Below the pieces are notes generated by a model. It ran no database searches, was not told the DNA's origin, and was given only the letters and a program-made list of their open reading frames with translations. The position numbers and the translations under genes are program-made. A stretch of 21,293 nt of DNA, taken from the IMG/VR virus record IMGVR_UViG_3300035698_006107, positions 1-21,293 of that record; one strand, written 5' to 3'. Below are positions 127 to 10,685 of the stretch, piece after piece (position 1 is the first letter of the stretch; each line of letters starts with the position of its first letter). The DNA comes from a virus.

Positions 127-569
127 TGTACGATCATAAAGCTTACATGCGGAAGTACAACCAACGGGAGTACGTTAGGGCCAACAAACGAGCAACCCGT
201 AAAGCGGGTGACCCCGTGCACCAAGCGTATATGAAAAAATACCGTCAACAGCCTGAACAACTGTGGCGCAATAGCACACGCCATAAAGAACGCGCTTATA
301 ACATCCGAGCGTGGTTACAAGCTATTCTCGGCGGTAAATGCGAACTTTGTGGTTGTACCAATCCATACATGCTAACGCTGGATCATCGTTTAAACGATGG
401 TGCCGCTCATCGCCGAAAAGTGGGTAGAAAAACAACCACTGTATACCGAGCGGTGCTGATCGAAGGTTGTCCTACAAAGTATTACCGTCTACTGTGTGGA
501 TCTTGCAATTTGGCTGTTGGCTGTTTCGGTGAAGAAGCCATTAAACAAAGCATAAAGGATAAACTATAA
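126..569 (+). CDS. HNH endonuclease-like protein (endonuclease VII-like zinc/HNH fold), upstream of purZ
   Basis: This 147-residue protein has a basic N-terminal half and a C-terminal ββα-metal (HNH) module. The module shows a CELCG zinc pair near residue 74, LTLDHRLNDG with the general-base His near residue 88, and LLCGSCNLAVG near residues 123-133, where the second Cys pair and the Asn of the HNH motif sit. This is the layout of phage recombination-endonuclease-VII-like and free-standing homing HNH enzymes, which nick or cut DNA and often spread into neighbouring loci. The start overlaps the upstream stop (TGATG) and the stop overlaps the purZ start (TAATG). A related HNH-like gene follows purZ. 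Whether it acts as a homing enzyme or in recombination cannot be told from sequence. Family assignment is confident, function less so. Confidence 0.75.
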   Translation: MYDHKAYMRKYNQREYVRANKRATRKAGDPVHQAYMKKYRQQPEQLWRNSTRHKERAYNIRAWLQAILGGKCELCGCTNPYMLTLDHRLNDGAAHRRKVGRKTTTVYRAVLIEGCPTKYYRLLCGSCNLAVGCFGEEAIKQSIKDKL

Positions 570-1642
570 TGACAACAATTAAAATACCCAAGGTCGATGT
601 TATAATAGGTGGTCAGCAAGGAAGTGAGGGGAAGGGAGTCATCGCTAACTACTTGTCTTCTGACTACGACGTACATGTTCGTGTTGGTGCCCCGAACGCT
701 GGTCACTCGTTTATCGGCCCAGACCGCGCCAACTGGGTTATGCAGACTGTGCCGTGTGGGTGGGCCAATCCACTCGCGATTTTAATCGTGGGACGTGGTG
801 GTCTTATCTGCCCCAAGCTGTTGCGTAAAGAAGTTGAAGCCATCGCCAAGGTTGATGGTACGATCTACAGCAGGCTGATGATAGACCCGTTGTGTGGCGT
901 GTTGGACCAGCAGTTTCAAGACATGGAAGGTGGTAACGATGGAGAAATGCACCATCGCATTGGCTCTACTGGTAAAGGTGTAGGCCCGGCGCGTGAAGCC
1001 CGTATCAGCCGCGATCCTGAACGGTTCCGGTTGTTCCGGGATTTAGCCGCCGAGGAACCTTGGTTCGCACAGTTCTCGATAGCCAACACTCCAGCCTTAA
1101 TACACAACATGCGAAAAGGTGGAGCGAAAGTGCTGTTAGAAGGCGCACAGGGTGTGGGCTTGTCTTTGATTCATGGCCCATGGCCATACTGCACTTCCAC
1201 TGACCCTGGTCCCGCGCAACTCGCTTCTGACGTTGGCATCCCAGTGCGGGATATCGGTCGTGTGATAGCCGTTTTTCGTACCTTCCCGATTCGCGTTGCA
1301 GGAAACAGCGGCCCACTTAAAAACGAACTGTCATGGGAACTCATGTCGGATCGTGTGGGGCACGATGTAACCGAAAAAACAACCGTCACCAAAAAAACAC
1401 GCCGGATAGGTGAGTGGGACGACGAACTGGCTGAACAGTGTCGCATCCTGCACGGGCCAACCGAAGTGGCGTTGACGTTTGTTGACTACCTCTCCCCGGA
1501 AGACGAAGGAGTGACGCGCTATGATGAGTTGTCCGTGGAAACCAAGGACTTCATCAAGCACGTGGAAGAAGTGACCGGGTGCCCGGTCCGTTTGGTTGGC
1601 ACTGGTGGACCGAAACTTAGAATCATAGAACGCACAGCATAA
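569..1642 (+). CDS. purZ: PurZ-type adenylosuccinate synthetase homologue (2-aminoadenine nucleotide biosynthesis)
   Basis: This 357-residue protein belongs to the adenylosuccinate synthetase family but is shorter than the roughly 430-residue bacterial PurA. The N-terminal nucleotide loop reads GGQQGSEGKG (residues 14-23), where PurA has GxxWGDEGKG. Ser19 therefore replaces the catalytic Asp. The PurA His is kept in NAGHSF (His46). Other family blocks are STGKGVGPAREAR (about residues 132-144) and EGAQGVGLSLIHGPWPY (about 192-208). Known biology: phage PurZ joins dGMP with aspartate to make a succinylated dGMP, which host PurB converts to dZMP, the 2-aminoadenine nucleotide. Loss of the PurA Asp is typical of phage PurZ. 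An AAGGA box lies 5' of the ATG. The start overlaps the upstream stop, and the gene sits between two HNH-like genes and just ahead of a primase-polymerase. Ordinary PurA activity is the alternative, but the substituted Asp argues against it. Confidence 0.85.
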   Translation: MTTIKIPKVDVIIGGQQGSEGKGVIANYLSSDYDVHVRVGAPNAGHSFIGPDRANWVMQTVPCGWANPLAILIVGRGGLICPKLLRKEVEAIAKVDGTIYSRLMIDPLCGVLDQQFQDMEGGNDGEMHHRIGSTGKGVGPAREARISRDPERFRLFRDLAAEEPWFAQFSIANTPALIHNMRKGGAKVLLEGAQGVGLSLIHGPWPYCTSTDPGPAQLASDVGIPVRDIGRVIAVFRTFPIRVAGNSGPLKNELSWELMSDRVGHDVTEKTTVTKKTRRIGEWDDELAEQCRILHGPTEVALTFVDYLSPEDEGVTRYDELSVETKDFIKHVEEVTGCPVRLVGTGGPKLRIIERTA

Positions 1643-6114: not shown

Positions 6115-6356
6115 TGGCTGTTAACGTACCCACCATCACCGATGCTAAGGTGATAGCAAAGCGTACCGGAGCCGCTGGTGTTATCATCATCGCATTTGGG
6201 CCGAAAGCGTACCCCTTGAAGACATGTGGCTCCAGCTATGGTAGCACCAAAAAGCTGTGTGTACACTTTGGTAAAGCGATGAAAAAGATAATGGAAGACT
6301 ATTGGAACTGGAAACCCAAACCACCAATTGACGTAGGAGACGTTTATGACAGTTGA
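6114..6356 (+). CDS. Hypothetical protein (80 aa)
   Basis: This 80-residue protein is coupled at both ends: its ATG shares a base with the upstream stop, and its last 11 bases overlap the sigma-factor gene. The N-terminal half is Ala/Val/Ile-rich (TGAAGVIIIAFG near residues 18-29) and the C-terminal part is basic and aromatic (KAMKKIMEDYWNWKPKPP). No motif is recognised. Its position directly before the sigma factor may make it a co-expressed partner, which is inference from order only. Confidence 0.5.
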   Translation: MAVNVPTITDAKVIAKRTGAAGVIIIAFGPKAYPLKTCGSSYGSTKKLCVHFGKAMKKIMEDYWNWKPKPPIDVGDVYDS

Positions 6357-8276: not shown

Positions 8277-8360
8277 CTTTAGGACTGCCACGCTGGCATA
8301 CGGGGAAGACAGTTAAGGCGTGCGGGCCACCCCGGATAGCGTGCGTACCGTCAGTACCTC

Positions 8361-8473
8361 TATACAAGGTACGTACGGTACTGACGGTACTGGCGGTCAG
8401 AAGGCCATAACGGAGGCGTGTTTTAATGTACTTTGAACCGCCAGTACCGTCAGTACCGTCAGTACCTTGTATA
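8361..8473. repeat. Large inverted repeat (36-bp arms) built on GTACCGTCA iterons
   Basis: Arms 8361-8396 and 8438-8473 are reverse complements at 34 of 36 positions. The outer 12 bp (TATACAAGGTAC) and inner 22 bp are perfect, with a 2-base mismatch between them, around a 41-base loop. The arms are made of a repeated 9-mer, CAGTACCGT, tandem at 8442-8459. The 14-mer GTACCGTCAGTACC occurs at 8345-8358, 8444-8457 and 8453-8466 on +, and inverted at 8377-8390, so alternative hairpins (for example 8345-8358 with 8377-8390) are possible. Iterons plus dyad symmetry next to an AT-rich TATATATAG run (8470-8478) is the look of an origin or repressor/initiator binding array. Confidence 0.85.
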
Positions 8474-8540
8474 TATAGAATATACAGGAAGACGGGGTAC
8501 GAAAAGGTAGGGTTAACGGAGGGCGTTCACTGTTGAGTAG

Positions 8541-8578
8541 TATGCAACGGCTTGCATATATTGGGAGCAAAAAGCTCC
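8541..8578. repeat. Two adjacent small hairpins
   Basis: TATGCAA (8541-8547) and TTGCATA (8552-8558) form a perfect 7-bp stem with a CGGC loop. Six bases later GGAGC (8564-8568) and GCTCC (8574-8578) form a 5-bp stem with an AAAAA loop. Neither is followed by a T-run, so they are not intrinsic terminators. They belong to the hairpin field described for the whole non-coding region. Confidence 0.6.
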
Positions 8579-8616
8579 AGAGTGTCTATTTGATATATTG
8601 GCTTCCCCCTATACCA

Positions 8617-8659
8617 AAGCAAACCACGTGCCAATTTCGAACAGCAAATCCCGTGCCAA
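8617..8659 (+). repeat. Two half-copies of the GCAAA-CGTGCCAA stem-loop arm
   Basis: AAGCAAACCACGTGCCAA (8617-8634) and AGCAAATCCCGTGCCAA (8643-8659) are direct repeats of the right arm of the stem-loops at 8950-8990 and 9390-9429. A good left arm is lacking; only a weak ATTGGC at about 8598-8603 could pair with the first. They may be decayed copies or single protein-binding half sites. Confidence 0.65.
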
Positions 8660-8853
8660 CTCGAAACTGTGTATTTAGGGGTACACAGCAAAGACTTTGT
8701 ATCTACACAGTCTACACTGTGCGTGGAAGTTACAAGGAAGCCACGTCGTTGGCCTTCCTTGCTCCGCGTACTATACTCATATCCACGAGATATCTGAGGC
8801 TTACCGTCGTAGCCCCGGACCCCACCCGATGGACACTTCGAGCCATGCCCAAT

Positions 8854-8871
8854 CCAGCGTCGTAACGCTGG
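8854..8871. repeat. Perfect 7-bp hairpin with CGTA loop
   Basis: CCAGCGT (8854-8860) pairs with ACGCTGG (8865-8871) around the 4-base loop CGTA. It sits seven bases upstream of the left terminal repeat of the 142-bp element that follows and has no T-run. Confidence 0.6.
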
Positions 8872-8908
8872 CGGACGATTATAACGCCACCGCGCATATC
8901 TTACCGAG

Positions 8909-8944
8909 TTGGCACGCTGTTTGCTATAGCAATTCTCGTGCCAA
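8909..8944. repeat. Stem-loop family copy 1
   Basis: TTGGCACG (8909-8916) pairs with CGTGCCAA (8937-8944). Inside, after an unpaired 4-base step on each side, TTGCTA and TAGCAA (8921-8932) form a second perfect palindrome. The same two-tier design occurs in the next stem-loop and in one about 450 bases downstream. Confidence 0.8.
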
Positions 8945-8949
8945 GTTCA

Positions 8950-8990
8950 AATTGGCATGTCGTTTGCTAAAAGCAAATCCCGTGCCAATT
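8950..8990. repeat. Stem-loop family copy 2
   Basis: AATTGGCATG (8950-8959) pairs with CGTGCCAATT (8981-8990), with one G-T pair. The apical stem is TTTGCT/AGCAAA (8963-8968 with 8972-8977), separated from the basal stem by TCG and TCC. It lies five bases after copy 1. Confidence 0.8.
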
Positions 8991-9241
8991 GAGTGTCAAC
9001 TGCGCGGTGGCGTTATAATAGTGCAAATAGTCTGGTATTTGCATTCCGAAATACACGTACAACCGAGTTGGAGACTTTCTGGGAAGCTTCTCCTTGGCCT
9101 TGCTTTATCATGGTGGGGTGTTCAGGGCTATCTGTCTATTTGAGGACCGGGACGGGCTTCCGGGGAACTCCGGGAGGGTTCGACAGGTCCGGGAAGGCCC
9201 GCTCGTACTCGGACTTCTCAGAACCGCATATGCAGGGGAAC

Positions 9242-9263
9242 ATCCCTAATCTGTGGGATTTTT
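9242..9263 (+). terminator. Possible weak intrinsic terminator
   Basis: ATCCC (9242-9246) and GGGAT (9255-9259) form a short stem with an 8-base loop, followed directly by TTTTT (9259-9263). The stem is only 5 bp, so termination would be weak. It could end a transcript entering from the hairpin region before the downstream gene cluster. Confidence 0.35.
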
Positions 9264-9389
9264 GCCTATACCTTTGCACCTTGCGACACTGCTCAGGTGT
9301 GCATTTAGGCGTCCCGGAGGGTCCACGCGGGATTATGGGAGGCTCCCCATACTATCCGGATATCCTCTGAGAGGGTCTTTGCGGCCTTC

Positions 9390-9429
9390 TTGGCACGTCG
9401 TTTGCTCTTAAGAGCAACTCTCGTGCCAA
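9390..9429. repeat. Stem-loop family copy 3
   Basis: TTGGCACG (9390-9397) pairs with CGTGCCAA (9422-9429). The apical stem is a perfect 16-bp palindrome, TTGCTCTTAAGAGCAA (9402-9417), so the top is longer than in the two upstream copies while remaining self-complementary. The basal 8-bp stem is identical to copy 1, and the unpaired step is again four bases on each side (TCGT and CTCT). Confidence 0.8.
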
Positions 9430-9604
9430 AAGAGAGGTGTTTGTGAAACGCGGAGCCGTCCCGTACGGATAAACATGTAGAAACAGGACGGCCAACTTCG
9501 TAAGGCCCACGCCAACCAAAGTCAATATCGACCTCTTGCGAGCGATGGAGCAGAAGCAACTTTCTTGTTTACTACACACCGCACACCAACCCAAGGATGA
9601 TAGC

Positions 9605-10388: not shown

Positions 10389-10685
10389 ATGAACTTCATA
10401 CCTTTGTCAGATCGCATCTTAATTCTACCCACTCCGGAGCCGGAACCCAAAGAGGGTGAGATCATAAGAGTTCGATCCGACGTTGAAAAATCACCAACTG
10501 ATGGCACTGTTGTTGCCGCTGGACCGGGACACTATGAAAACGGCGGCTACAAACCGATGGAAGTAACCGTTGGTGACCACGTGCAGTGGGGCAAGTTCGC
10601 AGGTTCGTACGTAGAAATCGACGGGTGCAAGCTCGTTTTAATGCGGGAATCTGACATCCAAGGAGTTATTCCAGATGTACATTGA
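10389..10685 (+). CDS. GroES-like co-chaperonin
   Basis: This 98-residue protein is the size of a 10-kDa chaperonin. It starts MNFIPLSDRILI (family PLxDRVLV) and contains DGTVVAAGPG (about residues 38-47), then KPMEVTVGDHVQWGKFAGSYVEIDG and the highly characteristic LMRESDIQGVI near the C terminus. The mobile-loop region (about 18-34, EGEIIRVRSDVEKSPT) is divergent but keeps a hydrophobic IIRV that could engage host GroEL. Established: some phages encode GroES substitutes (T4 gp31) to fold their capsid protein with host GroEL. A candidate promoter and an AAAGGAA box lie upstream. It overlaps the next gene by 11 bases. Confidence 0.85.
   Translation: MNFIPLSDRILILPTPEPEPKEGEIIRVRSDVEKSPTDGTVVAAGPGHYENGGYKPMEVTVGDHVQWGKFAGSYVEIDGCKLVLMRESDIQGVIPDVH

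Follow-up and report, generated by a model that had tools for sequence, protein, structure and literature searches.

The window analysed here, a 21.3-kb stretch of DNA from an uncultured virus, is itself the whole IMG/VR record and contains genes for a PurZ-like protein, a primase-helicase, a terminase, a portal protein and a capsid protein. In the list of open reading frames, a gap at about 8277-9535 lies between the replication-side genes (primase-helicase on the left) and the head genes (terminase, portal and capsid on the right); the gap was judged noncoding from this mechanically made list, in which some frames span it. The PurZ-like adenylosuccinate synthetase (569-1642, plus strand; phrog_1211) carries GSEGKG, which, as opposed to the GDEGKG of PurA, we take to be a mark of 2-aminoadenine-DNA phages. 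The window may thus come from a Z-genome phage, and the sigma-54 sites described below might then hold Z in place of A. A phage-encoded co-chaperonin, Cpn10, is located at 10389-10685 (plus strand) and scores over the Pfam cut-off. No DNA match to near relatives of the window phage was found among isolates, and the relatives of its terminase are so distant (about 24% identity) that the host is not derivable from them.

The gap holds eight copies of a short element, all inside 8618-9429, which form three face-to-face pairs and two singles. The pairs occupy 8909-8944, 8950-8990 and 9390-9429, where the sequence-only reading had placed three stem-loops, and the two half copies that it had described are also present, both on the minus strand: TTGGCACGTGGTTTGCT at 8618-8634 and, in tandem 25 bp further on, TTGGCACGGGATTTGCT at 8643-8659. 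The repeated unit is the arm, TTGGCACG-N4-TTGCT, rather than the hairpin, and it is these two half copies in which the arm stands singly. Pair 1 consists of TTGGCACGCTGTTTGCT (8909-8925, plus strand) and TTGGCACGAGAATTGCT (8928-8944, minus strand), face to face with starts 18 bp apart. The left arm of pair 2, TTGGCATGTCGTTTGCT (8952-8968, plus strand), is divergent from the right arm of pair 1 at a distance of 25 bp and faces a second copy of TTGGCACGGGATTTGCT (8972-8988, minus strand) at 19 bp. Pair 3 is formed by TTGGCACGTCGTTTGCT (9390-9406, plus strand) and TTGGCACGAGAGTTGCT (9413-9429, minus strand), with 22 bp between the starts. All eight arms match TTGGCACG-N4-TTGCT with at most one mismatch each; no further site within one mismatch exists elsewhere in the window, and the reversed-pattern control gave zero matches there. 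Dinucleotide shuffling of the whole window (60 times) left on average 0.33 sites with at most one mismatch and 0.017 perfect sites.

Pairs 1 and 2 are surrounded by a perfect 19-bp inverted repeat, ATTATAACGCCACCGCGCA (8878-8896 and 9001-9019; 8878-9019 overall), each arm of which bears an outward TATAAT. We considered this repeat as a general part of the arrays and rejected it, as it is not general in the other arrays.

Identity of the repeated element

The arm matches TGGCACG-N4-TTGCW, which we take to be the -24/-12 promoter element of sigma-54 (RpoN). Read in this manner, the supposed stem-loop resolves into promoter parts: its basal stem corresponds to the -24 box and its apical stem to the -12 box, with the spacer forming the "unpaired step" between them. 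All eight arms have GG and GC ten bp apart within TGGCACG-N4-TTGCW, with no more than one mismatch. A published genome-wide form of the sigma-54 element, TGGCACnnTTnTTGC, agrees with the arm (PMC8743547), and a longer string, TGGCACGRNNNTTGC, is in use in published papers.

The variation among copies points in the same direction. Among 235 one-mismatch members near arrays, which are degenerate sites not required by the search, the change falls on C6 in 111 (to T), on G7 in 92 (to A in 90) and on C15 in nine, while GG is changed in one and A5 and G14 in none. In chance sites more than 1 kb from arrays, the changes are spread more evenly over the positions. Positions outside the search pattern also fit the consensus, with Y preceding TGG and R following G. 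The degenerate copies change where sigma-54 tolerates change, which we count for the sigma-54 identity, and both the identity of the sites and their variation pattern can be read from the sequence itself. The array arms are thus very probably sigma-54 sites. Bacterial -24/-12 promoters have the same consensus, fixed inter-box spacing and tolerated changes as the arrays (PMC8743547), but each of them normally stands alone and is directed at a gene, whereas the phage sites are packed face to face and in tandem at fixed spacings.

Stable predicted folds are what would favour structured RNA or DNA hairpins selected for pairing, as the sequence-only reading had proposed: each of the three palindromes folds as RNA (z -4.4 to -7.4), and 8876-9021 folds into a 146-nt stem at -80.7 kcal/mol (z -12.2). 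However, the palindromes fold because they are two opposed copies of one element. The divergence of the tips had been regarded as compensatory, but in the middle copy the tip (AAA) lacks self-complementarity. In many phages (136 loci with 153 distinct face-to-face pairs), the variable positions of one arm change independently of those of the other. No positive association between arms was seen at Y6, R7 or W16, and the Y6/Y6 combinations correspond to independence, with T/T observed four times against about four expected. Base pairing between the N4 spacers is rarer than in shuffles (146 of 612 positions against 178.8 expected), contrary to what a structured RNA would need. Many arrays are same-strand tandem copies without palindromes, unable to form a hairpin, and in viral contigs tandem same-strand pairs were as readily found as convergent pairs among the matches listed. 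A search of Rfam gave no match, hence no described RNA family. Further copies are abundant in other phages, as the idea of a repeated family had anticipated, but the covariation that it also called for is absent, and we consider selection on pairing very unlikely. The other suggestion, a binding site for a dimeric protein, holds in kind, as this is very probably a protein-binding site; it fails in detail, since each arm is a complete asymmetric sigma-54 site. With the arm complete alone and the 4-bp spacer fixed, the pair consists of two opposed sites rather than a single operator for a symmetric dimer. In phage noncoding DNA, palindromic "hairpins" can accordingly be opposed promoter elements and not RNA structure, which calls for caution.

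Recurrence and spacing across phages

Arrays of this type were found in well above one hundred IMG/VR contigs, which are often fragments. The convergent pair pattern was found in at least 119 stretches of viral contigs, whereas a mirror-image pattern of the same composition and symmetry had 0 matches there, and 85,000 prokaryote genomes (257 Gb, bacteria and archaea) gave eight stretches. The convergent pair pattern is widespread in viruses and nearly phage-specific. Three or more sites within 300 bp are present at 157 loci, which form at least 41 groups, the largest having 85 loci; a group comprises loci linked by a protein of at least 30% identity, and no such link exists between groups. We found no description of arrays of this kind, or of sigma-54 decoys in phages, in the literature searched.

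The neighbouring sites keep strict distances. With each distance counted once per group in 64 groups, the starts of convergent neighbours are 17-22 bp apart; divergent neighbours are 22-26 bp apart with a second class at 31-36 bp, and tandem neighbours 24-30 bp apart with a second class at 35-40 bp. The pair searches admitted start distances of 16-30, so sharp edges within this range were not imposed. Each second class is about one helical turn longer than the first, as is expected for proteins packed on double-stranded DNA, and we infer from this phase that proteins sit side by side on the duplex. Up to ten consecutive sites on one strand follow each other at about 26 bp (26-28 bp). The spacings in the window (tandem 25, convergent 18, divergent 25, convergent 19 and 22) obey the same rules as those of other arrays.

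Among nine relatives of the window's terminase, one (L021) has an array of its own at 1497-1990, built mostly with TGTGCT for TTGCT and in repeated longer units, and another (L018) has three minus-strand sites inside 2.1 kb. The remaining relatives, most of which are short fragments, have no perfect site; the array is therefore not a shown fixed trait of the window's phage group. A portal protein of HMO-2011-like type is common in the neighbourhood of arrays, its best isolate match being 61%. Nine genomes of HMO-2011-type isolates, with Pelagibacter or Roseobacter hosts, contain one site only, in CRP-9, from which nothing follows on host RpoN.

Six of the eight prokaryote stretches (L140-L145), mostly betaproteobacterial, have one gene neighbourhood in common and contain face-to-face pairs with starts 27-28 bp apart. 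In L144, the pair at 6307-6349 is flanked by a gene for a dihydropyrimidinase and one with weak similarity to arylmalonate decarboxylase, and the genes point apart. This pair between divergent nitrogen-scavenging genes is likely a two-way sigma-54 promoter.

Gene context and possible promoter activity

Genes were taken as simple open reading frames and kept if they had a relative among the loci; the loci in one group are kin, so the placement counts that follow are not independent. Only 16 of 254 arrays with credible genes are inside a gene. The 61 arrays with sites in mixed orientation lie at divergent gene junctions in 41 cases and at convergent junctions in three. In the group that shares a common terminase, all 95 of 95 arrays are upstream of the terminase, with 332 of 498 sites directed away from it and 166 towards it. 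Outward sigma-70-like promoters adjoin the array in 34 and 38 of 124 cases, as in L025, and inward ones in four and five. Placement, recurrence and spacing are, like site identity, features of the sequences as they stand.

The constant position upstream of the terminase in this large group, together with the iteron-like regularity of the spacing, would suit the site of another protein, such as a phage repressor, a replication initiator or a small terminase, that coincides with the sigma-54 consensus. We judge such a coincidence improbable, because the motif and its tolerated changes fit sigma-54 at positions outside the search pattern, the motif is unchanged across unlinked groups while phage repressors and initiators usually diverge, and the pair is also found upstream of bacterial nitrogen genes.

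Another explanation is that the arrays are bidirectional sigma-54 promoters, whose pairs or clusters fire one or both ways under a host enhancer-binding protein and yield phage mRNA or small or antisense RNAs when the host state allows. The preference for divergent over convergent junctions is what promoters would show, and the betaproteobacterial pair resembles a two-way promoter; we count both against a capture function. The same applies to an RNA of a cultured phage. PAK_P4as16, an antisense RNA annotated by RNA-seq (PAK_P4 55650-55850, minus strand; L281 851-1051), has its 5' end at a convergent pair located at 55823-55856. The annotated 5' end is about 20 nt off the predicted sigma-54 start, and its dependence on RpoN is putative.

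Cultured Pseudomonas phages carry related arrangements. One array contig is the Pakpunavirus vB_PaeM_C2-10_Ab02, and a 501-bp query around its convergent pair matched 135 Pseudomonas phages, some only over the part holding the pair. Both arms are kept in seven of 11 aligned phages (six P. aeruginosa phages and SYP of P. plecoglossicida), one with a change at R7; the other four keep the minus arm, with at most its last base changed, and have one TTGC base changed in the plus arm. The aligned phages also share a strongly conserved block of about 45 bp on the right side of the pair (L056 10197-10290), which sits where the enhancer site of the leftward promoter would be. Facing sigma-54 sites about 200 bp apart are present at a second place, at 137 (plus), 349 (minus) and 628 (minus) in Ab02 (LN610572) and at 640 (plus) and 839 (minus) in OQ183418. 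No site was found in phiKZ, LUZ19 or 14-1.

Pseudomonas phage YuA has annotated -24/-12 promoters of high measured activity and reportedly requires the host's sigma-54 (PMC5053324), which lends the promoter explanation a precedent. However, the YuA promoters stand apart from each other, close to structural genes and on the same strand as these, without arrays, and the whole YuA genome has no match to TGGCAYR-N4-TTGCW. The phage loci hold arrays instead of single sites aimed at structural genes, and most of their sites point inward or away from the late operon; in the window, five of eight point leftward, against the plus-strand genes on either side. Furthermore, ten same-strand sites 26-28 bp apart cannot all initiate transcripts, the flanking genes already have sigma-70-like promoters, and a gene for a sigma-54 activator is absent from the window and from 24 of 25 array phages, although an activator supplied by the host may serve. 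We regard bidirectional promoters as possible, though less likely than not.

Possible capture of host sigma-54

We favour capture of host sigma-54 over bidirectional promoters, and the two may each apply in different phages. The array would be a docking array, at the level of DNA, for the host sigma-54 RNA polymerase, and capture (titration) appears its most likely function, a proposal that we hold to be evenly poised. Each "stem-loop" is in this reading two complete -24/-12 sites, opposed so that a few bp separate their -12 elements; the sites are nearly all of consensus strength and are packed at fixed spacing in the gap between gene modules. The sigma-54 polymerase holds consensus sites in closed complexes until an activator arrives. 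As the phage replicates, hundreds of near-perfect sites per cell may come to bind the host sigma-54 or its holoenzyme in such complexes, which would be silent without an activator and would draw sigma-54 off the host promoters of nitrogen, flagellum or pilus and phage-shock genes; sites at the array edge may also fire. The sigma-54 pool is about a hundred molecules per E. coli cell, and the consensus sites per genome multiplied by the replicated copies could exceed it. We prefer capture because the activator gene is absent from the window and from nearly all of the array phages examined, and the number of sites is possibly above this pool; actual binding of sigma-54, its titration and a benefit to the phage would be the steps that the arrangement implies.

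Several observations are counted for the docking array or for capture. The recurrence in at least 41 unlinked groups with one spacing code, the zero count of the mirror pattern and the mere eight stretches in prokaryote genomes argue for a docking array. A distance of about 26 bp between tandem sites leaves no room for a polymerase on every one, sites directed away from the terminase operon outnumber those directed towards it two to one, and the flanking genes are provided with their own outward sigma-70-like promoters, all of which suggest capture. In contrast, close facing sites are probably unable to hold holoenzyme on both, which would make a wasteful sponge and counts against capture.

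Sigma-54 is a scarce host protein, and the clustering and strength of the array sites are those of a titration locus. E. coli datA, the titration locus of DnaA, has clustered sites for a scarce host DNA-binding protein and would work alike if the arrays are sponges, but the phage array concerns another protein, is phage-borne, denser and far more regular, and its titration is putative. Phage Xp10 P7 is an inhibitor of the sigma-54 polymerase and would have the same host target, though it is a protein inhibitor and the array consists of DNA sites (PMC5053324).

In the wider proposal, whose chance we set a little short of even, many unrelated phages would carry a helically phased DNA sponge of consensus sites that, once replicated, strips the cell of RpoN and shuts its regulon, for example pili, flagella, nitrogen and phage-shock genes. 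Phage proteins that disable the housekeeping sigma factor are known. The sigma-54 array is detectable from sequence alone and testable in the cultured Pseudomonas phages PAK_P1 and PAK_P4. If the proposal is true, a widespread, spacing-constrained DNA array directed against sigma-54 would be another route by which phages take over host transcription.
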